From a virus, in IMG/VR virus record IMGVR_UViG_3300047476_000928, positions 1 to 64,000 of that record: DNA of 64,000 bases; one strand, given 5' to 3'. The notes under the pieces are model-generated. The model did not search any database and had not been told where the DNA came from. It worked only from the letters and a program-made list of their open reading frames with translations. Each line of letters begins with the position of its first letter. Position 1 is the first letter of the stretch. Positions 25,104 through 63,008 of this stretch are shown here, one piece after another. Both the position numbers and the translations under genes were made by a program.

Positions 25104-25157
25104 ATACATTGTATTTAGAAAAGCAATATGTTTATATAAATATTTTCAAAATATTTT

Positions 25158-25182
25158 AAAAAGTGCGTTTAGAGCAAACTGA
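25158..25182. repeat. Direct repeat copy 1, GTGCGTTTAGAGC core
   Basis: A 21-bp stretch (A5 then GTGCGTTTAGAGCAAA), followed by YTGA, recurs in the same orientation at 42322-42346. Here it lies between an early-operon terminator and the SSB-like promoter. It has no coding role; a protein-binding site or recombination junction is possible. Confidence 0.7.
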
Positions 25183-29488: not shown

Positions 29489-30250
29489 TTATTTTTTAAA
29501 AAGCAATGCAATTACATCCATGTAATCCTTACATTCAATTACTTGGAATTTCTCATTCTCTTCATGTATCCATACCAAATACAATCTTCCAATCTTCAAA
29601 TTAGTATTCTTCTCAATGATGTACTTGTATAAATTTAGCTGTAACGAATAAGCTTCATATTCGCATTCTTGGATAAAATTGATAGGCGCTTTAAATCGCT
29701 TACCAAACTCAGACTTCATCCGTATCTTTCCATTTGTCTTGTAATCCCAAATTTGCAGTTCCCCCATTTTTTCATTCCACATCAGCTTATCAACCATACC
29801 GCCGATACCCATTTCTGCATCTCCAATCACTAGCTCCATTGCAATAGGAACCAACGATTTAGAAGCCTCGTTATAGAACTCAATAAACATTCTAATACAT
29901 TCATCCAAGCGCTCCTTTATTACATCTTCGCCAAACTTATTAACGGCAATAGATTCATCGTATGGAAATACCTTGTTAGCCCAATAGTTCTCTGCAAAGG
30001 CGTGTAGTAGTGTACCTTTGATTGATGCAAAATCACGCTTATAATCCCATTCCGCTAGCAATACCTCTGGCTCAACGCCTTTCTTCTTAGCAGATAGCTT
30101 TGCCATTTTCTGCGCATCAAACTTCTCTTTAAGTGTACCAATAAATGTAGTACCCGATACAAGCTCCTGCTCTCCAATAAAATACTTGTGAGGCTCATCA
30201 TAATACTTGATGTGCTTAAACTTGGCTAACTCTTTGTATATCATATTCAT
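29489..30250 (-). CDS. RecB/Cas4-type PD-(D/E)XK exonuclease
   Basis: 253 residues. KGTLLHAFAENYW (78-90) gives the GxxxHxxxE start of the RecB-like fold; GIGGMVDKL around 147-155 the Asp; LQIWDYKTNG around 165-174 the Asp-x-Lys catalytic strand; and YSLQLNLYKYIIE around 200-212 the conserved QxxxY helix. The family degrades or trims double-stranded DNA and often pairs with phage recombination. It is the second gene after the DnaB helicase, behind a 32-residue Cys-rich gene, so it probably works in DNA replication or repair. Confidence 0.8.
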   Translation of the reverse strand: MNMIYKELAKFKHIKYYDEPHKYFIGEQELVSGTTFIGTLKEKFDAQKMAKLSAKKKGVEPEVLLAEWDYKRDFASIKGTLLHAFAENYWANKVFPYDESIAVNKFGEDVIKERLDECIRMFIEFYNEASKSLVPIAMELVIGDAEMGIGGMVDKLMWNEKMGELQIWDYKTNGKIRMKSEFGKRFKAPINFIQECEYEAYSLQLNLYKYIIEKNTNLKIGRLYLVWIHEENEKFQVIECKDYMDVIALLFKK

Positions 30251-30353: not shown

Positions 30354-31793
30354 TTAAAATGGCTGTATTGATACACCTGCATCAAAGTCAACCTTTATCT
30401 TATTAATTTGCGAATCTTGGTAGGTTATTCCACTCTCAACAAATCGAAATAGCTCTGATTCATCGTCCGCAATTCTATTGGTTTTAACATCAACATATCT
30501 TACAATGTCGCCCACATTCCCATCTCTGTTTTTAAGTATCGTGTACTTCAATGTATTGTCCATAGGAGCCACTGCTTGACCGCTTGCTTTTGCATCTACA
30601 TACTTGTAGTAATCATCACGATACAATCCAATTACCACAATAGCATCCTGCTCAATGTTACCTGATGAACGCAAGTCAGACAGCTGTGGCACACGGCTAG
30701 TACGCTTCTCAATATCTCTTGACAGCTGTGATAAGCAGATGATTGGAATACCTAGCTTTCTAGATAACTTCTGCATCTTGTTACTTACAGACGAAACCTG
30801 CGCAAAATCGCTTTGGTCTTTAATCTGAACATCACGGATAAGCTGTAAATAATCTACTACAACCATATCAATCTTGTTCTTTCTGCATTCGCCTGCCAAT
30901 AGCATTGACAAGTAATTAACATCTCTGTTATCTGAATCGTAAAAGAACAAAGGCAACTCTTTTAACATCTTTGCCTTGGACGCTTTAATCTTTTTAACAT
31001 CCTCCTGCGTAATCCGATTTGCTTTTAAATCAGAATAGTTGTACTCGCTAATCTCGCTTGAAATGTATCTGTATAACAGCGATTCCTTCGGCATCTCTAA
31101 TGACAAAAACAAAACCCTCTTACCTGATAAACAAGCGTATTTAGCATGCTCTAATCCTGCAATAGTTTTTCCCATTCCGGGTCTAGCTGCAATAATACTA
31201 ATACCTTCTTGCCACCCGCCTAACGCATAGTTTAGCTTTCTAGAACCTGTGTCAATGCCACTGAATTTCAAATTACCTGCGTTGGTTTCCAGTTGGGCAA
31301 TTACTTTATCGTACACTGACCCAATAGTAGTTACTTCTTCGGATACTGCTTCATCTGAAAGTTTAGCCATGCCATTGTCAAGCGTTTGCATCAAGTCAGA
31401 TACCTCTGCTCCCGCAGTTAGCTTTGATTCAACAGCTAATACCATTTCTGATATATTACGCTTTGTTTCTAGCTCTTTTAACTCGGCGCACACCGCAGGT
31501 AAGTTAAAGGTACGCTTTGGTAGCATCGTTAGGATTCTAGTAGCATCAATGCCAAACTCTGATTCCTTTGATTTAAGCCACCGAAAAACATCGTAACGAT
31601 TGAATGTACCTTTTTCAGCAGAAAGTGTAACACACGCTAAATATGAAGCTCCTAGTAGGTCTTGCGTAAAAGTATCCTTACTGATAATCTTTTTAGCATC
31701 TATAATTGAATGCGGGTGCTCCAAAATGTAGGCGATAACATCTTCTTCTAGTAGGTTATCCATTAACTCCAATCCTTTTCTTTTCTTTACCAT
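30354..31793 (-). CDS. dnaB: DnaB-family replicative helicase
   Basis: 479 residues; an internal ATG at 31763 (MDNLLEEDVIAYIL) is an equally good start. The N-terminal helical domain is followed by the RecA-like core: Walker A ARPGMGKT (203-210), FLSLEMPKESLLYRY, Walker B VVVDYLQLIRD, then LSQLSRDIEKR and SDLRSSGNIEQDAIVV as sensor and arginine-finger regions. A hexamer unwinds DNA at the fork. The start overlaps the stop of the iteron-containing initiator gene by 7 bases, consistent with loading by that protein. It is the only replicative motor seen. Confidence 0.95.
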   Translation of the reverse strand: MVKKRKGLELMDNLLEEDVIAYILEHPHSIIDAKKIISKDTFTQDLLGASYLACVTLSAEKGTFNRYDVFRWLKSKESEFGIDATRILTMLPKRTFNLPAVCAELKELETKRNISEMVLAVESKLTAGAEVSDLMQTLDNGMAKLSDEAVSEEVTTIGSVYDKVIAQLETNAGNLKFSGIDTGSRKLNYALGGWQEGISIIAARPGMGKTIAGLEHAKYACLSGKRVLFLSLEMPKESLLYRYISSEISEYNYSDLKANRITQEDVKKIKASKAKMLKELPLFFYDSDNRDVNYLSMLLAGECRKNKIDMVVVDYLQLIRDVQIKDQSDFAQVSSVSNKMQKLSRKLGIPIICLSQLSRDIEKRTSRVPQLSDLRSSGNIEQDAIVVIGLYRDDYYKYVDAKASGQAVAPMDNTLKYTILKNRDGNVGDIVRYVDVKTNRIADDESELFRFVESGITYQDSQINKIKVDFDAGVSIQPF

Positions 31794-32497
31794 GTGTCGG
31801 GTATGTCTAATTCAAATCCTTTTGTGTCGGCGGGCGCTCCGCCAGTTTCTTTTCTTTTTTCTTCTAGTGGGTTAACGATTACTTCATCTTCCCAAACTTT
31901 ATGCTTCAAATATCTTTCAGGGTCTTTGCGATATACTGCTTCGGGTCTAGCTCTTGTGTAGTATGGTACTGCTATTAGGATTGCATCCTTTTCTGATTCC
32001 TTTAATCTACTCCATTGCTTTCTAGTATTTTCCTTTCCTACCTTCTTTCCGTACAGCTCCCAAAACTCATCAAACCTATCGTCTTTTTTACTACTCTCTT
32101 TATTGCTATTATCTTTATTACTAATATGGGTTAGATTATCCAATGTAGGAAAATCCAAGGTTGGAAAATCCAAGGTTGGATTATCTGATGTAGGGATTTC
32201 TTCTAAAACCTCTAATGGACAGCTAGAAAGCTGATAAGAGTAGATTAAATGCCCCTTGTTATTTCTGCTTTGTGTGCGAGTTAAGTATCCCGCCTTTTCT
32301 AATTCGATAAGCGCCATTCTTATCGCTGTAACCCCCTCCTTTGTTTGTAAACTAATACGCTCTGCACTAAAATCCCAACTCGCAGGTTTCGATTGGATAT
32401 AAGCGTACACTCCCTTTGCTTTAAAGGTTAAATCCTTGTTGTTAAGCAAGTCATTAGGTACTACCCCGAAATTATTCTTAATCGTTACCTTTGCCAT
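31787..32497 (-). CDS. Replication initiator / helicase loader (winged-helix, O-like)
   Basis: 236 residues. VTIKNNFGVVPNDLLNNKDL then FKAKGVYAYIQSKPASWDF (25-45) and TAIRMALIELEKAGYLTRTQ form a winged helix-turn-helix like phage initiators. At about 103-125 the chain carries PTLDF PTLDF PTLDN, encoded by 15-bp DNA repeats that look like iterons. The C-terminal half (FDEFWELYGKKVGKENTRKQW) resembles initiator/loader proteins that contact DnaB. In lambda the O gene likewise holds the origin. It overlaps DnaB and the gene before it. Confidence 0.75.
   Translation of the reverse strand: MAKVTIKNNFGVVPNDLLNNKDLTFKAKGVYAYIQSKPASWDFSAERISLQTKEGVTAIRMALIELEKAGYLTRTQSRNNKGHLIYSYQLSSCPLEVLEEIPTSDNPTLDFPTLDFPTLDNLTHISNKDNSNKESSKKDDRFDEFWELYGKKVGKENTRKQWSRLKESEKDAILIAVPYYTRARPEAVYRKDPERYLKHKVWEDEVIVNPLEEKRKETGGAPADTKGFELDIPDTW
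32140..32194. repeat. Iterons inside the initiator gene, candidate replication origin
   Basis: Units every 15 bp on the plus strand: CCAATGTAGG, CCAAGGTTGG, CCAAGGTTGG and CTGATGTAGG, with A/T-rich 5-bp spacers (AAAAT, AAAAT, ATTAT). The two central decamers are identical and near-palindromic. A flanking AT-rich block (32080-32140) could melt. Location in the initiator gene matches lambda-type origins. Confidence 0.6.
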
Positions 32498-41670: not shown

Positions 41671-42312
41671 ATGCTACAATACGACATTAAGCAGTCGCCA
41701 CCTAATACTGTAATTGTAGAGGTTGGGACAGCCATTGATGACACAGTTACATTCGGTAAGTTAACGATTCATATTGACCCACTATTCAATCCTACCCACT
41801 ACGCAAGAATCTACGGCAGAGTAGTGGCTGTACCAGACAGTCAACCCGTAACAGAACATGGCGTAGCAATTGACGATTATGTCAAGACAGGAGACCTTAT
41901 TTACTTCCACTATTTAACGACTAATGATGAAGCGAACTGTATCTACGGGAACTATTATAAAGTACCTTATTATTGGATTTTTTGTGCTGTTAGGGACGGG
42001 AATATTCATCCTGTTGGAAGCTGGACTCTCTTGGAGAAATATGTTGAGGAGAACTTTGACACAGTGGAAGTTAATGGTCAACGGATGGAAGCTACTTTAA
42101 GTGCATCTGGCTTAGTAACAGGTGTGTTTAAGAAGCCTTCTCAGAAGTATGCAACAGTAGCTCATATTGGTAAACCATTGCGTGGGGAACCAGACCTTGG
42201 ATTGCGTAAAGGAGATAAAGTGATACTTGATAAAAACAGCAACTTTGAGAACGAAATTGAAGGTAAAAAATATTACACTGTAAAACAGGAGTATATTATA
42301 GGAAAAGCATAG
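41671..42312 (+). CDS. GroES-like co-chaperonin
   Basis: 213 residues with two barrel-like halves. The C-terminal half has ATVAHIGKPLRGEPDLGLRKGDKVIL and EIEGKKYYTVKQEYIIG, the pattern of GroES (GDKVLL ... GEEYLLLREDDILG). The N-terminal half has DDYVKTGDLIYFHYL and a mobile-loop-like segment. T4 gp31-type proteins replace host GroES to fold the major capsid protein. Placement just before terminase, portal and capsid genes supports capsid folding. It is longer than GroES, so a fusion or duplicated form is possible. Confidence 0.6.
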   Translation: MLQYDIKQSPPNTVIVEVGTAIDDTVTFGKLTIHIDPLFNPTHYARIYGRVVAVPDSQPVTEHGVAIDDYVKTGDLIYFHYLTTNDEANCIYGNYYKVPYYWIFCAVRDGNIHPVGSWTLLEKYVEENFDTVEVNGQRMEATLSASGLVTGVFKKPSQKYATVAHIGKPLRGEPDLGLRKGDKVILDKNSNFENEIEGKKYYTVKQEYIIGKA

Positions 42313-42321
42313 ATTTTGTTA

Positions 42322-42346
42322 AAAAAGTGCGTTTAGAGCAAATTGA
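42322..42346. repeat. Direct repeat copy 2, GTGCGTTTAGAGC core
   Basis: Identical over 21 bp to 25158-25178 and followed by TTGA (CTGA in copy 1). It lies ten bases after the GroES-like stop and next to an inverted copy of the initiator iterons, so this gap collects pieces found elsewhere in the genome. Confidence 0.7.
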
Positions 42347-42350
42347 ACTT

Positions 42351-42446
42351 CATCAGATTATCCAAGGTTGGATTTTCCAAGGTTGGATAATCTAACCTTA
42401 TATAGTAATAAAGATATAGCAATAAAGAGAAAGTAATAAAAAGTAT
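42351..42446. repeat. Inverted partial copy of the initiator iteron region
   Basis: Read on the plus strand it aligns with the complement of 32190-32085: CATCAGATTATCCAA matches CATCAGATAATCCAA. Two CCAAGGTTGG units with a five-base spacer follow, one 15-bp unit is missing, then TAATCTAACC and AGTAATAAAGAT..ATAGCAATAAAGAGA continue. The frame of the gene is not kept, so it is non-coding here. It could be a second initiator-binding site or a relic of recombination. Confidence 0.75.
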
Positions 42447-42620
42447 ATAACCGAAAGGCGGAAAACCGCCGCGAAGCAGGAAGACGAAGTCTCTCCTAAA
42501 TGACAAGTCCCCTTTAGGGGATTTAGGGGAATGTAAGTCAGATAAACTAATAAGCAGTTCGCCGTAGCGAAAGCAACCCCCCTGTTCCGCTCGCCCCCCT
42601 TCGCAGTTAAACGTAAAGAC
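42447..42620. other. Hairpin-rich spacer upstream of the terminase genes
   Basis: No gene. Small hairpins in order: GGCGG-AAAA-CCGCC (42457-42470), GAC-GAA-GTC (42483-42491), CCCCT-T-TAGGGG (42509-42520) and TTCGC-CGTA-GCGAA (42558-42571). No U-tract follows any of them. A packaging site or structured 5' leader of the terminase operon is possible. Confidence 0.4.
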
Positions 42621-43181
42621 ATGGCATTATTTAACGAATCCGATTTTGCAGAGTGCTGCATCCCAATCTTTGGAAAGGATATCCATAAGGACAAATCTGT
42701 CACGCAGATATTTGGTCGCATACCTGCTGACCAGATTCCGCTAATCAGGTACATTGCTTTGATGTATGACCAGAAGTCTCCTATGCGATTAAAGATTTCT
42801 GACATACAGCTTCGTAAGGAAGAGTGTTACGAGATGTCTGAGCTCAAAGAACCAAAGGATGAAATCTTTGATTTAAGCCACGATAATATACTCGTCTATA
42901 TCAATGCCTACCTGAAGCATCAATCGTCTAAGATATGGGCAGTAATGACTGCTAACGAGGAAGTGTTGTGGCAGTATCAGCAAGAACTTTTAACTCCGAT
43001 TGTCAATTACAAGAATGACAAGGATAAGTTGCAAGCTTTGGAAATTAAGACTAAGCTGATGCAGGAGTGCGACGCAATCATTAAGCGCATCGAAGCTTAT
43101 GAGGAGAAGATATTTGGAGACAATATTGACAAGAAGAAAGAGATATTAAATTTAACGCCTGAATCAATAGCAAATGTATAG
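42621..43181 (+). CDS. Terminase small subunit (by position)
   Basis: 186 residues, mostly helical, with FDLSHDNILVYINAYLKHQSS in the middle and a C-terminal Lys-rich coiled coil (IKRIEAYEEKIFGDNIDKKK). Stop overlaps the large terminase start by 8 bases. No strong small-terminase signature is visible by eye; assignment rests on location, size and coupling to the large subunit. The small subunit normally recognises phage DNA for packaging. Confidence 0.55.
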   Translation: MALFNESDFAECCIPIFGKDIHKDKSVTQIFGRIPADQIPLIRYIALMYDQKSPMRLKISDIQLRKEECYEMSELKEPKDEIFDLSHDNILVYINAYLKHQSSKIWAVMTANEEVLWQYQQELLTPIVNYKNDKDKLQALEIKTKLMQECDAIIKRIEAYEEKIFGDNIDKKKEILNLTPESIANV

Positions 43182-45177
43182 ACAACACCGATACGGCAGC
43201 AAGCAGAATATCAACGGGATTGTAGTAACGATTCCGCCAAGCGGAACTGTATATAATATTCTGACTAACCAGTGGGAGAAGCGGGATATATTCAGGCGTT
43301 CTGCTAAAAAAGAAAACCAATATTGGGAGAGACCTTTACCACCAGATAATTATGAAGCTAAGCGAAAAAAGGAAATTGCTGCGCAAAAGACCAATCCGGA
43401 CTACTACAACCCAGAACTCCAAAACTACAGAAACCAAGAATGGGATAGGCGCCTTAATGGTTTTTGGTTTTATAATAACGGAGTGCCTACTTATGTTACT
43501 GGGTTACATTATTTTTACTTGGTTCATTGGAAAATTGACATAGGCTACCCGCATTTCCGTATGACGGACGTGCAGTTCTTCTATTTCCTTGAATACGTTA
43601 TGCAGGACCCTAACTGTCTTGGTATGATTGAGGTAACAAAACGTCGTCAAGGAAAGACAATGCGTGCGGGTGCTTTTCTGTTTGAGCTGACATCGCGCAG
43701 CAAAAACAAAAATGCTGGTATTCAGTCTAAGACATTTGAGGACGCTAAGGAGAACGTATTTGCTAAGGGCGTTATTATGCCGTTTAAATATTTGCCCGAT
43801 TTCTTTGTGCCAATCTATGACACAGAAAAAGGTCAAACCCCAAAAGGAGAACTAAGATTTTTTAAAACAAACAAGCGTGGCGCTAATGACGACATTTTTA
43901 CTGAAAAGGTTGAGCTGGAATCAAGTATTACTTTTAAATCAGCTGATAAATTTGCTTATGACGGTATGAAGCTACATCGCTATTTGGCGGACGAGGCAGG
44001 TAAAACCAAGAATGTGGATGTGTATGACAGGCACCAAGTCGTTCAGTTTTGTTTACAGCAAGAGGAAAACATTATTGGAAAAGCGCTTTATACGACTACA
44101 GTAGAGGAAATGGAAGATGGAGGGGCATCTTTCAAGGAATTGTGGTTAGCTTCCAATCAAGAACAGCTTGACGGAAACGGCAGAACAAAATCTGGTTTAT
44201 ATCAATACTTTATGCCAGCCTACAAAACTTTGTTTTACGACCAATACGGTTTTGCAGACGAAGAGAAGGCGAAAGAGTATTATATGAACGCTAGAGCAGC
44301 TTTACAAGACGACCCGCGAGCTTTGGCATCTTATATCCGTAAAAACCCGTTTACCATACAGGAGGCATTCTTCTCTGAAGCAGATAGCTGTTTGTACGAT
44401 GCACTTGCGATTAATAAACAATTGGAGACAATAGCGTGGGTTGACGAAAAAGAATTATATTTGCGCGGAGAATTCATGTGGGATAAGGGTGTTCGTGATA
44501 GCAGAGTAATTTTTAAAGAGACCTCTAATGGCAAATTCTTGGTACACAAGAAGCTGAACGTGTTAGAGGATTACAATTACAATGATGTCCAAGAATACGG
44601 CACAAAGAAGGCGCCAAAGCATGCTACTAAGTTTGCAATGGGCGTTGACCCTTTTGACCACTCAATTATTACCAGCAAAGGTTCCGATGGAGCATGTTAC
44701 GTATTTCGCAAATACGATGCAACAGATGAGCTTAGCGAAACCTTCTTGGTTGAATATCTTAACAGACCTGATACGGCAGAGATATTCTACGAGGACATGA
44801 TTAAGCTAGTCCACTTCTTTAGCTGTCAAGCACTAATTGAGGACCAGAAGATTGGATTGATTAAGTATTTTGAGGCTAGGGGTTACGAGCGTTTCTTGTT
44901 TAGAATACCAAATTCTGCGAAATATGGTATATCTGCTTCACAGAAAACGCACCAACAGATAGCTGAGCAAACGGAGATTTATATAAATGAAAATTTACAT
45001 AAAGTAATTTTTAAAAATCTTTTAGAGGACTGGTTGACGTTTGATATAAAAAATACAACTAAATTTGATGCGGCGATGTCAAGTGGTTACACATTGATAG
45101 CCGCAAGTGGGTCTAAGTTTGCGCAAGCTGCTAAGCCAGAACAGAAATTATACGATGTAAGGGAGATATTCCTATAA
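43174..45177 (+). CDS. Terminase large subunit
   Basis: 667 residues. ATPase: EVTKRRQGKT (153-162) is the Walker A, LADEAG (271-276) the Walker B with Asp273 and Glu274. The nuclease half starts at MGVDPFDH (Asp492), with FYEDMIKL and ALIEDQK supplying further acidic residues of the RNase H-like fold. The enzyme pumps DNA into the prohead and cuts concatemers. It overlaps the small-subunit gene by 8 bases, and the portal gene starts 5 bases later. Confidence 0.9.
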   Translation: MYRQHRYGSKQNINGIVVTIPPSGTVYNILTNQWEKRDIFRRSAKKENQYWERPLPPDNYEAKRKKEIAAQKTNPDYYNPELQNYRNQEWDRRLNGFWFYNNGVPTYVTGLHYFYLVHWKIDIGYPHFRMTDVQFFYFLEYVMQDPNCLGMIEVTKRRQGKTMRAGAFLFELTSRSKNKNAGIQSKTFEDAKENVFAKGVIMPFKYLPDFFVPIYDTEKGQTPKGELRFFKTNKRGANDDIFTEKVELESSITFKSADKFAYDGMKLHRYLADEAGKTKNVDVYDRHQVVQFCLQQEENIIGKALYTTTVEEMEDGGASFKELWLASNQEQLDGNGRTKSGLYQYFMPAYKTLFYDQYGFADEEKAKEYYMNARAALQDDPRALASYIRKNPFTIQEAFFSEADSCLYDALAINKQLETIAWVDEKELYLRGEFMWDKGVRDSRVIFKETSNGKFLVHKKLNVLEDYNYNDVQEYGTKKAPKHATKFAMGVDPFDHSIITSKGSDGACYVFRKYDATDELSETFLVEYLNRPDTAEIFYEDMIKLVHFFSCQALIEDQKIGLIKYFEARGYERFLFRIPNSAKYGISASQKTHQQIAEQTEIYINENLHKVIFKNLLEDWLTFDIKNTTKFDAAMSSGYTLIAASGSKFAQAAKPEQKLYDVREIFL

Positions 45178-50981: not shown

Positions 50982-53900
50982 ATGCCGGCAAATTTCAGCG
51001 TCCAATTTATTGTAAACGAAAAAACCCAATCACGGGTTTTGAAGTTAACTGATGCATCAAGTGGTTTTACGTTAGCTAAAGGTAACTTTTCTATAACATT
51101 CCCAGATGGTTCTACGAGAATCAAAACAGATTTTACGAGCCCTGATATTTCAGCTCCATTGGCGAATATTAGCATACCAGCGGTATTAGACACTAATAAT
51201 AATGTAATTACAGGGACATACAAGATTGATTTTGTTGCATTAGACGCATCAAATACATCTTATTCATCGTCAAAATCATTTGATTTTAACTGGGTTAAGC
51301 CATCAAATGGTATAACAAATTTGTCGGACGTATTAATACCTGAAGTTAAGTATCAAGATACAACATCGTATTCCCCAATAGGCAGCTTTACAGGTTCGGT
51401 AACAAGAACATTATCAGCATCATTTCCAACTACATCAGAGGCATCTGGCGGTTCAGTATCTACTGTATCGTCAAATTTAATTGATATGGTTAGCTCTGGT
51501 AAGTATTACGATGGAACATACACTCCTACTTCAGATGTATTAGTTAACTATACTCATAGCTCAAATTCATGGTTAACAATAAGCTATATTGAATTATTTA
51601 CTAAGACATTCTTAATAAAGCGTTGTCCAACTCAAATTGACCTTATAAATAAAATAAACACCTACAGGGGTGTGATTGAAGCATATAAGGAGAAAAACGA
51701 TACTCAATTTAATATACTAAGCGAGCAATATGATTTAGCTATTGCATTATATTCGCATGTAATTGCAAGATATGAAACATCTACTCAAGATGGCTCCGAA
51801 GGTCAATTAAGAGAGTTGCTTTCTATTTTAGAGCCATATTCAACATCATATACGCCACAATTAACAAGGATGCTTCCGTTTGAACTTGCTTCTACGGGCT
51901 CAAACTCGTTTAGCATATCTGACGGAACAAATACTGACCAAATACCACTTGGAAGCATTCTTACATTGTCTTCAGGTAATCCAGCATTAACTATTGGTGT
52001 TTCTAACAATTTAGTTACATATACGCCTACATTTGGTACAGCTATTAACACATTTGCGCAAGGTAATGATTCTCGCTTCCATAGCGCTGTAACTATTGGA
52101 ACAGCTAACGGTCTTTCTTTGGCTTCTCAGGCACTTTCTCTTGCCGCTGCGACATCTAGTTCATCTGGAGCAATGAGCGCAGCAGATAAGGCAAAATTAG
52201 ACGGTATTGCTGCTGGTGCAAATACAGGTACGGTAACAAGTATTGGAATTTCAGTTCCTTCTGCTTTTACAGTAAGTAATTCTCCTGTAACAACTAGCGG
52301 GACAATCAATATTTCTGCTACAGGTAATCCGCTTCAATACATTACTGGAGCTGGAGCTTTAGCTACATTAAATACAGGCGCAGTTCCTGAAAGTGGTAAT
52401 TTGTACTTCACAAATACTCGTTCTCGTTCTGCAATCTCTGTATCAGGTAGCTTGTCTTATGATTCTGGAACAGGGGTTATTTCATATACTACACCTAGCG
52501 AAACAGACCCTGTATTTACAGCATCGGCTGCGTTTGGAATTTCTTCTACTAATATCAGTAACTGGAATACAGCTTACGGATGGGGAAATCACGCTTCGGC
52601 TGGATATCTAACTTCATCCTTAGCGTCAACAACATATCAGCCATTAGATGCAGATTTAACTGCTATTGCTGGATTAACAGGCACTAGTGGATTATTAAAA
52701 AAGACTTCGGCAAATACTTGGAGCTTAGATACAAATACTTACCTAACCTCGTTTACGGAGACAGACCCAATTTTTGTTGCGTCTGCTGCCTATGGTATTA
52801 CTAATACTAATATTAGCAATTGGAATACGGCATACGGTTGGGGAAACCACGCCTCCGCAGGATATTTAACATCAATTAATTCTTCTCAGATTACAACCGC
52901 TTTAGGTTACACTCCTGAGAATGCTGCTAATAAAGGTATTGCAAACGGATATGCAAGCTTAGATGGTGCTGGATTAGTTCCTTCTACGCAGTTGCCTTCT
53001 TACGTTGACGATGTATTAGAGTATGCTGATTTAGCATCTTTGCCAGCAACGGGTGCGACAGGTAAGATTTATGTTACACTTGATACAAACAAGATTTATC
53101 GCTGGAGTGGAACTGTTTACGTTGAGATTAGCTCATCTGCTGGTGGCGGTGGAACGTGGGGTAGTATCATTGGTGCGCTATCAAATCAAACAGATTTGCA
53201 GGCTGCTTTAGATGCTAAACAAAATTCACTTGGATTCACACCTGTAACTAACGCTCGTACTTTAACAATTAACGGCGTTACATACGATTTAACAGCAAAT
53301 AGAAGCTGGACAGTTTCTGGAACAATGCCTGCTGGCGGAGCTGCTGGACAAATCTTATCTAAGATTGATGCTACAGATTACAATACTCAGTGGATTGATA
53401 ATTATGCTGAGCAAGTAAAGCATAGCGTTAAACTTGGAGCAACTATTGCAAAAGGTAAGGCTGTTTACGTATCAGGTGCTGACGGGACTAATATGATTGT
53501 TTCTGCGGCATCAAATGCTTCAGAGGCAACTTCCTCAAAAGTTCTTGGATTACTAGAAACTGGTGGAGTAACAAATGATATTGTAAAAGTTGTAACAGAA
53601 GGTCTTGTTGCTGGATTAGATACATCTACCGCAACAGCAGGAGACCCTGTATGGTTAGGTACAGGAGGCAATCTTATATTTGGCTTAGCTAACAAACCCG
53701 TTGCTCCAGCTAATTTAGTGTTTATTGGTGTCGTAACTAGGGTTCAATCTAACAATGGTGAGATTTTTGTTAATGTTCAGAATGGATTTGAATTAGATGA
53801 ACTTCACAATGTTTTGCTTACATCTGAGGCTAATAAAGATTTAATTTACTACGATAACGCAACTAGCCTCTGGAAAAATGCTCAACTTTCAACTGTACTT

Positions 53901-56165
53901 GGATATACACCTGCAAACGACTCTGCTGTAGTTCATATTGCTGGAGCAGAAACTATTACAGGAACTAAAACATTTAGAGGTAGCTCTACCAATGAAACTC
54001 CCACATTAGGGGCGAATATATTGTCATCTTCAGGGTGGGCTACAGGGGTAACTGGTTGGACAGGAGACTACACTAACGGATGGACAGTTGTTGGTTCTGG
54101 CTCAAGTCCAATGACAAATACGCAGACTGCGGTAAGCAATACATTCTATGTATTATCCGTAACAGCAACAACATCCGTATCTGGAAAATATTTGAGCATA
54201 ACATTTGGAGGCGGCTCATTCTTTGCATATTTTGCTTCAACAGGAACGCAGACTGTTAATGTAGAAGGCTTAACAACCTCAACTGGCACATTATCAATTT
54301 CTGCATCTGGTTTTGATGGAACAATTTCTGCAATAAGCTTTAAAACAAGAAATAGCACATCGTTGCCAATTGCTACATTTGCTTCGTCAACTGGGCTTAA
54401 TCCAATTGATGTAAGAGCTGATAATGTAAGCTCAAGCAATAATATGTTTATTGGATTTGATGCTGGTAAAAGTGTATATCTTACCGCAAATTCAAATTTA
54501 GGTATTGGGTACAATGTCTTAAAAACATTGCAGAATGGAATACAAAACATAGGAATTGGTTCTTCTGCATTAAATGCAAGTATTACAGGCTCAGGAAATA
54601 TAGGAATTGGCGTACAGGCTCTTTCTTCTTCTATATCAGGTCAATTTAATATTGCCATTGGTACAATTGCATTATCATATAATAAAGCATCGTACAACGT
54701 AGCTATTGGTTCTTCTGCCGCTTACAACAATACGACTGGAACATATAATGTTGCTCTTGGATTTAATACAATGTATGGAGCATCAAGCTCTACAGCCGCT
54801 TATAACACTGCATTAGGAGCTGAAACATTATATAATATAGCATCCAATTCAAATAACGTAGCTGTTGGATATCGGTCATTGTATAGTTTAGCTGGGTCAA
54901 ATGGGAATAACGTATCTATTGGATATCAAGCTGGTAGATATATTTCAGGTGGCTCAACTGCTGCTACAGATATTGCTAACTCAATTTTTATTGGACATAG
55001 TGCGTATCCGTTAGCAAATGCACAGACTAACCAAATTGTTATTGGACACGCTACCGTAGGCAATGGGTCAAATACGGTTACAATTGGAAACTCTTCAATT
55101 ACGGCAAACTACTTTAGGGGTTCTATAAATGGAGGTTCGTTTGTAAAAAGCGGCGGAACTTCATCGCAATTTTTAAAAGCAGACGGCTCTGTTGATTCAA
55201 GCACTTATCTAACTTCATTTACAGAAACAGACCCAATTTATATAGCTAGTTCTTGGTACACTACAACTAATAACGCAAGCAACTGGGATACAGCTTATGG
55301 TTGGGGTAATCACGCTTCAGCAGGATATTTAACAACATCTACTGCGGCATCTGCTTACCAACCTTTAGATGCTGACTTAACTGCTATTGCAGGGCTTGCT
55401 GGAACAAGTGGTTTCTTAAAAAAGACAGCAGCTAATACTTGGAGCTTAGATACTAGCACTTACTTGACAAGTATTTCTTCACTTGACGTAACAAATGCTT
55501 TAGGATATACCCCTGTAACAAATGCTCGTGTATTAACAATTAATGGAACTGCATTTGATTTGTCAGCGAACAGAAGCTGGACAATTAGTGCTGGAACTAC
55601 ATTAAATGGAACTGGATTTGTAAAAGCATCAGGAACTACAATATCTTATGACAATAGCACATACTTTCCTACAAGTGGTGGAACTATAACTGGTAATGTA
55701 ACAATAAGTAAGGCTAGCCCTTATTTAATTTTAACAAATACAACAACTGGAACATCAGGTCAAATATATCAAAGTGGCAATGATTTTTTTATACAAAATC
55801 CATCAACAGGTTGGCTTTATCTTGGCAATAGTACCAACACTTATGTATATGGGAATTTTTATGTTACAGGAGCTATTACAGAAGCATCAGCGTTGCGTTA
55901 CAAAAAAGATATAAAAGTGATTGAATCTGGATTAGATAAAGTTCTTAAAATGCGTGGCGTTTCTTATGTCAAGAAAGATAACGAACAAAAAGAGATTGGT
56001 GTTATAGCAGAAGAAATGAATGAAATTATGCCTGATGTAGTAAATAAAAACAAAGAAGGTCAGGTTGAATCAGTTTCATATAGTAGATTAACTGCAGTGT
56101 TAATTGAAGCAGTAAAAGAACAACAAAAGCAGATTGAAGAATTGAAAAGTTTATTAGGTAAATAA
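50982..56165 (+). CDS. Tail fibre with beta-helix repeats and S74 chaperone domain
   Basis: 1727 residues from the ATG at 50982; a longer in-frame reading from 50874 crosses the terminator and promoter and is rejected. The N-terminus is beta-rich with SVQFIVNEKTQS and a small helical part near 220-290. It then carries repeats such as ISNWNTAYGWGNHASAGYL (three or more copies) and YQPLDADLTAIAGL (two). YadA-like units (GSGNIGIGVQALS, NVAIGSSAAY) follow around 1190-1330. The C-terminus is an S74 intramolecular chaperone: SALRYKKDI with Ser1636 at the cleavage point, then SYSRLTAVLIEAVKEQQ. It would bind host cell-surface glycans or proteins as a trimer. Confidence 0.9.
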   Translation: MPANFSVQFIVNEKTQSRVLKLTDASSGFTLAKGNFSITFPDGSTRIKTDFTSPDISAPLANISIPAVLDTNNNVITGTYKIDFVALDASNTSYSSSKSFDFNWVKPSNGITNLSDVLIPEVKYQDTTSYSPIGSFTGSVTRTLSASFPTTSEASGGSVSTVSSNLIDMVSSGKYYDGTYTPTSDVLVNYTHSSNSWLTISYIELFTKTFLIKRCPTQIDLINKINTYRGVIEAYKEKNDTQFNILSEQYDLAIALYSHVIARYETSTQDGSEGQLRELLSILEPYSTSYTPQLTRMLPFELASTGSNSFSISDGTNTDQIPLGSILTLSSGNPALTIGVSNNLVTYTPTFGTAINTFAQGNDSRFHSAVTIGTANGLSLASQALSLAAATSSSSGAMSAADKAKLDGIAAGANTGTVTSIGISVPSAFTVSNSPVTTSGTINISATGNPLQYITGAGALATLNTGAVPESGNLYFTNTRSRSAISVSGSLSYDSGTGVISYTTPSETDPVFTASAAFGISSTNISNWNTAYGWGNHASAGYLTSSLASTTYQPLDADLTAIAGLTGTSGLLKKTSANTWSLDTNTYLTSFTETDPIFVASAAYGITNTNISNWNTAYGWGNHASAGYLTSINSSQITTALGYTPENAANKGIANGYASLDGAGLVPSTQLPSYVDDVLEYADLASLPATGATGKIYVTLDTNKIYRWSGTVYVEISSSAGGGGTWGSIIGALSNQTDLQAALDAKQNSLGFTPVTNARTLTINGVTYDLTANRSWTVSGTMPAGGAAGQILSKIDATDYNTQWIDNYAEQVKHSVKLGATIAKGKAVYVSGADGTNMIVSAASNASEATSSKVLGLLETGGVTNDIVKVVTEGLVAGLDTSTATAGDPVWLGTGGNLIFGLANKPVAPANLVFIGVVTRVQSNNGEIFVNVQNGFELDELHNVLLTSEANKDLIYYDNATSLWKNAQLSTVLGYTPANDSAVVHIAGAETITGTKTFRGSSTNETPTLGANILSSSGWATGVTGWTGDYTNGWTVVGSGSSPMTNTQTAVSNTFYVLSVTATTSVSGKYLSITFGGGSFFAYFASTGTQTVNVEGLTTSTGTLSISASGFDGTISAISFKTRNSTSLPIATFASSTGLNPIDVRADNVSSSNNMFIGFDAGKSVYLTANSNLGIGYNVLKTLQNGIQNIGIGSSALNASITGSGNIGIGVQALSSSISGQFNIAIGTIALSYNKASYNVAIGSSAAYNNTTGTYNVALGFNTMYGASSSTAAYNTALGAETLYNIASNSNNVAVGYRSLYSLAGSNGNNVSIGYQAGRYISGGSTAATDIANSIFIGHSAYPLANAQTNQIVIGHATVGNGSNTVTIGNSSITANYFRGSINGGSFVKSGGTSSQFLKADGSVDSSTYLTSFTETDPIYIASSWYTTTNNASNWDTAYGWGNHASAGYLTTSTAASAYQPLDADLTAIAGLAGTSGFLKKTAANTWSLDTSTYLTSISSLDVTNALGYTPVTNARVLTINGTAFDLSANRSWTISAGTTLNGTGFVKASGTTISYDNSTYFPTSGGTITGNVTISKASPYLILTNTTTGTSGQIYQSGNDFFIQNPSTGWLYLGNSTNTYVYGNFYVTGAITEASALRYKKDIKVIESGLDKVLKMRGVSYVKKDNEQKEIGVIAEEMNEIMPDVVNKNKEGQVESVSYSRLTAVLIEAVKEQQKQIEELKSLLGK

Positions 56166-56166
56166 T

Positions 56167-57162
56167 ATGGCATCATTAAAGAATACTACTATAAATGATA
56201 CTGGACATCTTACGTTACCTGTAGGCACAACTGGTCAACGCCCATCTCCTGCAAATGGAATGATTAGATTTAATTCTGACTCAGGACAAATGGAATCTTA
56301 CGTTGATGGAGCTTGGAGAACTGTTAGTGTAGATTATACTATTGAATTTGTACTGGTCGCTGGAGGTGGAGCTGGAGGAGGAGGTAGTAATGGTGGCGGC
56401 GGCGGAGGCGGTGGTGGAGTTATTATTAATAGCGGAACACTTGTTTCGCCAGGAACGGCGTACTCTATAGTTATTGGAGGTGGTGGAGGTGCTGTTATTG
56501 GAAGTGGAGCTAGAGGAAATCAGGGAGGTAATAGTACGGCATTTGGATTTACAGCCATTGGTGGAGGAGGTGGAAACGCTAACGGAAACTGGGGCGAAGC
56601 TCAAAATGACGGAGGCTCTGGTGGCGGCGGAGGTCGTGATACAGTTTGGGGAGATAGATTTTCATTTGGGTACGGGACTGTTGGTCAAGGTAATAATGGT
56701 GCTGGCGCTTTTAAGGGAGGTTATGCTTCTGCTGGTGGAGGTGGAGGGGCTGGAAACGGTGGTTATACAGGTGGAGATGACTTAAATGGAAGATATGACC
56801 CGATATCTTGTGGAGGCGAGGGTGCTTTAATTAACTGGACTGGGACTAATTTTTATTATGGTCCTGGTGGTGGAGGAGCTTTTGAAAACGCATACGGAAA
56901 TGCAAATGGTCCTGCTCCTGGCGGAAAAGGTCTTGGTGACGGAGGCGGATATGGCGCTACAAATCAAGCAAGCCCAACATCTGGGACAGCAAACAGAGGT
57001 GCTGGAGGAGGTGGAGCTAAAAGTAGTTGGTCTGGAGCAGGCGGCTCAGGCAGATGTGTTATAAGATATGCAGGACCTCAACGCGGCTCTGGCGGAACAG
57101 TTGTTTCTTATGGAGGATATACTGTTCACACATTCGACGGAACTGGAACTTTTACAGCATAA
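56167..57162 (+). CDS. Glycine-rich adhesin with shared anchor (copy 1)
   Basis: 331 residues. The first about 55 residues (MASLKNTTINDTGHLTLPVG ... ESYVDGAWRTV) are nearly the same as in the next two genes and act as an anchor module. From 60 to 310 the chain is poly-Gly/Ser/Asn segments alternating with short strands, like glycine-rich phage adhesins that form sandwiched polyglycine helices. It ends VVSYGGYTVHTFDGTGTFTA. It starts two bases after the main fibre gene and probably contacts the host receptor. Confidence 0.75.
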   Translation: MASLKNTTINDTGHLTLPVGTTGQRPSPANGMIRFNSDSGQMESYVDGAWRTVSVDYTIEFVLVAGGGAGGGGSNGGGGGGGGGVIINSGTLVSPGTAYSIVIGGGGGAVIGSGARGNQGGNSTAFGFTAIGGGGGNANGNWGEAQNDGGSGGGGGRDTVWGDRFSFGYGTVGQGNNGAGAFKGGYASAGGGGGAGNGGYTGGDDLNGRYDPISCGGEGALINWTGTNFYYGPGGGGAFENAYGNANGPAPGGKGLGDGGGYGATNQASPTSGTANRGAGGGGAKSSWSGAGGSGRCVIRYAGPQRGSGGTVVSYGGYTVHTFDGTGTFTA

Positions 57163-57164
57163 TT

Positions 57165-58217
57165 ATGGCAAGTTTAAAAAATACAACAATTAACGATACA
57201 GGCTTTATTCAGCTTCCTTCTGGAACTACAGCTCAAAGACCCGCTGGAGTTAATGGAATGATGCGCTATAATACTACATTAGCAGCTATTGAAATATACA
57301 ATGGGGCGACATCTAGTTGGAATACATTAATTAGCGGAGGTTACACTGTAGACGTATTAATTGCTGCTGGCGGCGGCGGTGGAGGAGCAGGTGGTACTAT
57401 TTGGTATGGAGGAGGAGGCGGAGGCGGCGCTGGTGGTCTTCGAGTTATTAGCAATATATCTGTGGCTACAAATACAGCATACCCTATTGTAATTGGAGCA
57501 GGAGGCTGCGGCTCTCAGACTAATAGTCAAGGAACAATTTATTGGGGGTCTAACGGAGGAAACTCATCTGCTTTTGGATACACATCAACAGGTGGAGGAC
57601 ACGGCGGCAGTTTTAACGGAGAAGGACCTTACTGGTATGGTCAAGATGGAGGCTCAGGTGGAGGTGCTGGTCGCGATAAAACATCAGGCAACGGAGCAGG
57701 TATAGCTGGACAGGGTTACAGTGGAGCTACAGCTTATGCTGGCGGATATGCTTCTGCTGGCGGCGGTGGTGGTGCTGGAGGCGCAGGCTATCAAGGTGGC
57801 GCTGACGGACAGGGTCAATATGTGTCTGGATTGCAGTCTGCTGGAGGCATTGGCTTATATTATGATTGGACAGGTAGTGGTATATATTATTGCGGAGGAG
57901 GAGGAGGCTCTTGGTCATCACCTGTTGGTGGCGTTGGTGGTGTTGGTGGAGCTGGCTACAATAATGGAGGCGGCAACGGAAGCGGGAGTCAATCTATCGG
58001 AGGAACTGCTGGTTTAGCCAATAGGGGTCAAGGAGGTGGAGGCGCTCACTCTAATAAAGGAGATAATGGCGGATACGGTTCTACTGGTTTTGCAGGAGGG
58101 TCAGGAGTAGTTTTAATTAGATACTTAGGACCTCCAAAAGCAAAAGGAGGTATTATTACTCAGTATAATGGATACACTTGTCATCAGTTTAATGGTTCAG
58201 GAAACTTTATAGCTTAA
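57165..58217 (+). CDS. Glycine-rich adhesin with shared anchor (copy 2)
   Basis: 350 residues from the ATG at 57165; a longer frame from 57027 would lie within copy 1. The anchor (MASLKNTTINDTGFIQLPSG, ending EIYNGATSSWNTL) is followed by a different glycine-rich body (about 65-330), with more Tyr and Trp than copy 1 (TIWYGGGGGGGAGG). It ends YNGYTCHQFNGSGNFIA, parallel to copy 1. Two tandem adhesins with the same anchor but different receptor parts could broaden host range. Confidence 0.75.
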   Translation: MASLKNTTINDTGFIQLPSGTTAQRPAGVNGMMRYNTTLAAIEIYNGATSSWNTLISGGYTVDVLIAAGGGGGGAGGTIWYGGGGGGGAGGLRVISNISVATNTAYPIVIGAGGCGSQTNSQGTIYWGSNGGNSSAFGYTSTGGGHGGSFNGEGPYWYGQDGGSGGGAGRDKTSGNGAGIAGQGYSGATAYAGGYASAGGGGGAGGAGYQGGADGQGQYVSGLQSAGGIGLYYDWTGSGIYYCGGGGGSWSSPVGGVGGVGGAGYNNGGGNGSGSQSIGGTAGLANRGQGGGGAHSNKGDNGGYGSTGFAGGSGVVLIRYLGPPKAKGGIITQYNGYTCHQFNGSGNFIA

Positions 58218-58221
58218 TATT

Positions 58222-58401
58222 ATGGCATCTTTAAAGAATACAACAATTAACGACACAGGCTTTTTGCAATTGCCAGCAGGCTCAAATGCACAACGACCTT
58301 CTGGCTCAAATGGAATGATTAGAGTAAATACAAACACAACACCCTATGTTCTTGAAATATATAAATCAGGGGCTTGGAGAATTTTAAAAGTATTATCATA
58401 A
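58222..58401 (+). CDS. Anchor-only third copy (59 residues)
   Basis: MASLKNTTINDTGFLQLPAG ... GMIRVNTNTTPYVLEIYKSG, closing with AWRILKVLS. It has the anchor of the two glycine-rich adhesins and stops where their receptor part would begin. The ending is clean and the next gene overlaps its stop by one base, so it may be functional rather than broken. Confidence 0.75.
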   Translation: MASLKNTTINDTGFLQLPAGSNAQRPSGSNGMIRVNTNTTPYVLEIYKSGAWRILKVLS

Positions 58402-62977: not shown

Positions 62978-63008
62978 TTGTAACAAATTTTGCCTAAATT
63001 TGTTACAA
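62978..63008. repeat. 13-bp perfect inverted repeat overlapping a -7 box
   Basis: TTGTAACAAATTT and AAATTTGTTACAA flank TGCCT. The right arm contains TAAATTTG (62995-63002), a TAnnTTTG box for the gene starting at 63023. No U-tract follows on either strand, so it fits an operator or RNA-processing site better than a terminator. Confidence 0.65.

Follow-up and report, generated by a model that had tools for sequence, protein, structure and literature searches.

The window analyzed here, a stretch of 64,000 nucleotides, covers positions 1–64,000 of the IMG/VR virus record IMGVR_UViG_3300047476_000928, which is 65,914 bases long in full. The ends of the record share a 127-bp direct terminal repeat, so the map of the record is probably circular; a terminal repeat of 123 or 127 bp is also present in several relatives, and our guess is that it represents the assembly overlap of a circular map. 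The early arm of the window runs leftward, from the initiator gene into a gene for a DnaB-type helicase, and the late arm runs rightward, from a GroES-like gene across a 308-bp gap to a putative terS, the terminase large subunit gene and the portal gene. The features on which the analysis depends are as follows.

29489–30250, minus strand: exonuclease gene of the early arm (phrog_298, 4.4e-24; PF12705).
30354–31793, minus strand: DnaB-type helicase gene, adjoining the initiator gene (PF03796, 6.1e-62).
31787–32497, minus strand: replication initiator gene (phrog_270, 3.4e-23; DnaD-like families; predicted model).
32085–32130, minus strand: in-gene AT-rich block, after the repeats in the coding direction (aligned with the gap copy).
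32138–32181, minus strand: three in-gene dyad units with 15-bp spacing (pattern scan).
41671–42312, plus strand: GroES-like (Cpn10) gene, upstream edge of the gap (PF00166, 7.2e-11).
42351–42446, plus strand: non-coding second site, resembling an origin module, in the gap that precedes the putative terS (85% match, conserved position).
42360–42373, plus strand: gap dyad unit 1, ATCCAA-GG-TTGGAT, ATCCAAGGTTGGAT (pattern scan).
42375–42388, plus strand: gap dyad unit 2, TTCCAA-GG-TTGGAT, TTCCAAGGTTGGAT (pattern scan), 15 bp from unit 1.
42398–42450, plus strand: AT-rich block beside the gap repeats, a candidate unwinding element (limits set by eye).
42621–43181, plus strand: putative terS open reading frame, downstream edge of the gap (named from its position only).
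43174–45177, plus strand: terminase large subunit gene (phrog_6681, 2.8e-85).

Family searches with the putative terS product gave no match, and the reading frame also precedes terL in relatives, at 59–71% identity. The nearest named terminases are approximately 30% identical and belong mostly to Flavobacterium and Cellulophaga phages. The early-arm exonuclease, together with a weak match to a RusA-like resolvase in the same arm, fits recombination-driven concatemers, but such genes are common in phages. Several other sequence elements were recorded around these genes. A 28-bp repeat, 93% identical between its copies, lies just before the gap site (42319–42346) and again between early-region genes (25155–25182), and is possibly a promoter-like or leader element. 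A C-rich stretch at 42566–42612, ahead of the terS start, is a candidate packaging or termination signal, and a GC-rich stretch of a similar kind precedes the terS start in all eight aligned sequences. A self-complementary stretch of 31 bp (62978–63008, 90% identical) is perhaps a terminator, and late genes carry internal repeats of 74–77% identity (52548–52874 with 55194–55463; 56146–56274 with 57145–57262 and 58202–58329).

The original prediction described the gap sequence as an inverted, non-coding copy, about 95 bp long, of the complement of 32190–32085. The match is real, and those limits hold for both sites if one missing unit is allowed for. In the best local alignment, 42356–42442 pairs with the other strand of 32170–32085 at 85.4% across 89 columns (E 4.6e-20 in the search that started from the initiator gene), and the local score of the gap against its own initiator gene was 102, compared with a maximum of 30 in 500 shuffles. 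The gap copy overlaps neither the chaperonin-like reading frame, which ends at 42312, nor the next one, which starts at 42621, and is non-coding as proposed. The repeated unit is a 14-bp dyad, ATCCAA-NN-TTGGAT, with asymmetry confined to the central two bases. Three units and an AT block make up the site in the initiator gene (read on the plus strand, ATCCAATGTAGGAA at 32138, ATCCAAGGTTGGAA at 32153 and ATCCAAGGTTGGAT at 32168), and two units and an AT block the site in the gap, in agreement with the earlier observation that one 15-bp iteron is absent. A core decamer flipped relative to its flanks had also been noted; this is literally right, as the flanks are inverted and the core reads alike on the plus strand, but the core only seems flipped because the units are dyads that are asymmetric in their central two bases alone. 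The description of the copy as inverted stands for the map, where the gap site is on the plus strand; followed along the direction of the neighboring genes, both sites read iterons and then AT block.

Within the initiator gene, the repeats and AT block encode residues ~92–137, a region of very low confidence in the predicted model, as expected for a disordered linker. The model comprises a predicted winged-helix-like N-terminal domain, this linker and a helical C-terminal domain, and its mean pLDDT of 66.5 permits a reading at the level of domains only. When the model was used in a fold search, nothing reached E 0.001; winged-helix proteins came closest, including the DnaD N-terminal domain at 0.019, which is consistent with an initiator-type fold for the predicted structure. 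A single sequence match to a solved structure (E 0.039) was treated as chance.

Relatives were collected by scanning for the terminase, which yielded 26 viral contigs at 72–79% identity among the best 80 of 271 matches, and for the initiator, which added G029 to give at least 27 relatives. Both sites could be read in 24 of the 27 and therefore, with the window, in 25 phages; G005 and G022 (gap array seen, no initiator match in the record) and G025 (which begins inside the terminase gene) were left out. In every one of the 16 records that are whole or long fragments, the in-gene module is copied in the same gap before the putative terS, inverted on the map and 5.8–10.6 kb from the initiator gene. 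The repeats themselves are quite different from phage to phage. Matches elsewhere in the genomes were short ones in G001, G017 and G029 (E 0.003–0.004); extra matches in G016 proved to be a repeated leader before genes rather than iterons, and one in G029 a contig-end repeat.

Nucleotide-level searches of a phage collection gave no match to the sequence, and a scan of genome contigs found no relative. Among 31 loci carrying relatives of the initiator, most of them short, and one Elemovirus genome, no second copy was detected, with one exception, a match of 26 bp in L008. This search is a weak one because L003, the locus of lineage member G029, was also negative, its copy lying beyond the locus. 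A terminase of this lineage was present in 1 of 27 initiator-relative records. In 14 loci with a terminase 35–37% identical and at least 6 kb of upstream sequence, the stretch before terL was not repeated; the same test recovered the copy in five of six lineage loci.

Each gap array was compared with the initiator gene of its own phage. Unmasked scores ranged from 54 to 143 and exceeded all 100 shuffles in each of the 25 phages. When AT blocks were masked and all gaps were scored against all initiator genes (25 × 25), the own-pair total was 1713, against a best of 1119 in 100,000 permutations, although the pairing and shuffle tests both leave relatedness within clusters in place. Single linkage at a score of 50, a threshold chosen by us, grouped the gap arrays into nine clusters. 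When each cluster was represented by a single phage, no pairing out of 362,880 except the true one had a total as high as that observed. With masking, the highest score in a row went to the own initiator in only 13 of 25 cases, and without masking in 12 of 20, the losses being mostly to near relatives that share repeats. Exceptions across clusters were also seen: the G013 and G026 gaps match another cluster's initiators better than their own, and G010, compared among cluster representatives, scores 27 with its own initiator and 29 with another. G013 (L047, L125) looks like a natural mosaic, with an in-gene array nearly that of G007 and a gap array like that of G026. A strict test for dyads with shared arms found 5-bp arms common to both sites in only 12 of 25 phages; imperfect units are frequent, which makes the test too strict, but we still count its result against the pairing. 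A partial Mantel test, run for 16 genomes with three neighboring proteins controlled, gave an r of 0.196, and 243 of 5,000 permutations were as high, so that support for covariation is weak once phylogeny is controlled.

Three phages, G018, G019 and G020, gave no phrog_270 match. Instead, where their gap array recurs there is a Lin1244_N/phrog_2562-type gene, an assignment that is direct for two of the records and made for G020 through 69% identity to one of those two, and all three gap arrays match this Lin1244_N-type initiator gene of their own phage. A comparison of profiles between the phrog_270-type and Lin1244_N-type protein sets gave nothing significant, and a predicted Lin1244_N-type structure was set aside at a mean pLDDT of 47. 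In these three mutually similar records, the gap site looks as if it has followed the initiator through an apparent replacement by another family.

We interpret the two sites as matched, initiator-binding origin modules, probably working like oriL/oriR of Bacillus phage SPP1. Published work on SPP1 describes an origin inside the initiator gene, composed of repeats and an AT-rich unwinding element, a second similar site ~12–13 kb away on the circular map, and one initiator, the replisome organizer G38P, that binds both (PMC6316719, PMC3485210). It is this arrangement, two modules of repeats plus AT block with one of them in the initiator gene, that leads us to read the gap site as a second origin module. 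The proposal that the copy might be a second initiator-binding site is supported, as a prediction, by the covariation over nine repeat clusters and the change of initiator family, and binding of both sites by the phage's own initiator is most likely and strongly supported by that covariation. The link to packaging or late transcription that was also suggested may exist; the place of the site before the putative terS is constant.

In the mechanism we propose, the initiator would bind both modules, one in the linker-coding part of its own gene and the other in the gap that separates the GroES-like gene from the putative terS; the AT block would be melted and DnaB, encoded by the neighboring gene, loaded there, which would make both sites usable in replication. 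By analogy with the proposal for SPP1, the initiator may, once bound to the second site, halt forks arriving from the first and shift replication toward concatemers, the packaging substrate. The sequences show the match, its position and its covariation, from which binding, melting, helicase loading, firing, fork stalling and control of packaging at the gap site are inferred. Selection for matching would hold the second site in step whenever the specificity of the initiator, or the initiator itself, changes. We suggest, tentatively and as less likely than not, that the origin could even be an obligatory pair in this lineage, such that a change in the initiator or replacement of its family entails rewriting of the non-coding site before terS to match. 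If so, the second site would be an essential link between the mode of replication and the start of packaging, and not a spare origin.

The AT-rich block bears on two other explanations. In the window, the gap block reaches 82% AT over its best 40 bp, a content equaled by only 0.43% of all 40-mers in the record; the proportion is at most 0.43% in 13 of 16 records, the exceptions being the three Lin1244_N phages (1.1%, 3.5% and 12.5%). Compared with its in-gene counterpart, the gap block has the higher AT content in 22 of the 25 phages, the same in one and the lower in two. This would suit a gap site that is the main origin, with the in-gene array secondary or regulatory, as would the larger number of units that several gaps have relative to the gene (seen in the sequences rather than systematically counted). 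We nevertheless regard this as unlikely: in the window the units number three in the gene and two in the gap, and in SPP1 the in-gene origin is the one that starts theta replication (PMC3485210). GC skew does not decide between them, with a clean step at neither site; at third codon positions, genes on the minus strand have more G to the left of the initiator gene than to its right (13/13 records), but in finer bins the skew declines gradually without a step at the site, and it was rejected as a sign of where firing occurs.

The gap site might instead bind the initiator without firing, and serve only to block forks or to control late (terminase) transcription. Its fixed place before the putative terS is compatible with such a role, and a barrier that stalls forks and starts concatemer synthesis is what has been proposed for SPP1 oriR (PMC3485210, PMC6316719). 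A mere operator would, however, have no need of an AT block, which is kept and is usually richer in AT than its in-gene counterpart, and a scan of the gap, limited to sigma-70-like promoters, found none. We consider this reading rather unlikely.

Linkage offers another account of the matching, in which the initiator gene and gap, ~10 kb apart, are swapped together as a whole module and no selection acts on the site. The similarity of gaps and that of linkers both track the identity of DnaB and Cpn10, and the partial correlation is small, as this account would have it. Linkage alone, however, leaves unexplained why sites are alike within a genome and different between genomes: the mean cross-site score within a phage is 58, compared with 17 between gaps of different clusters and 28 between linkers. 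G007 and G013, moreover, have near-identical in-gene arrays and different gap arrays, so the parts can move apart, and transfer of whole modules seems to us improbable as the explanation. The earlier suggestion of a relic, taken here as the decaying remains of a past duplication or genome rearrangement, has in its favor that the copy is shorter by one unit and non-coding, but is rejected as extremely improbable because relatives retain the copy in the same gap without decay, with a match to their own initiator in 25/25 phages and, in a separate search, the same inverted orientation in 16/16 records; the check for loss or neutral decay thus favors function.

Our preferred reading, a matched pair of origin modules, can be set beside known systems. 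Like SPP1 oriL/oriR, the window has repeats and an AT block inside the initiator gene, and the lineage has a second similar site at 5.8–10.6 kb in 16 of 16 records. Unlike that of SPP1, the second site of this lineage always lies before the putative terS and is inverted on the map. The initiators are of the phrog_270 or Lin1244_N type here, and that of the SPP1-like Geobacillus phage GBK2 is of phrog_16826; the sole match common to the window and GBK2 initiators is the broad, DnaD-like phrog_186. In GBK2, units resembling GTTGGTAAAANACCAAC are repeated inside the initiator gene (L204, 31150–31380), but a search for a second copy gave none; either such a search can overlook pairs that have diverged, or pairing is not general even near SPP1. 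The window iterons lie within the initiator reading frame, as do those of lambda in gene O (annotated in J02459). Unlike the window, with its second copy at 42356–42442, the lambda genome contains no second copy of the origin, the best match being 18 bp (E 0.13). Satellite phage P4, with ori and crr, has two separated sites that carry the same initiator-recognized repeats.

A literature search with little coverage of subscription journals found no paper on paired origins, either for this lineage or for Flavobacterium phages. Why a phage should keep two initiator sites is a question even for SPP1, where stalling of forks at the second site is no more than a proposal. The 25 genomes, which combine nine clusters of repeats and two families of initiator with a constant location, provide a natural experiment on this question, and a candidate binding site displayed twice per phage makes the DNA specificity of an initiator readable from sequence alone.
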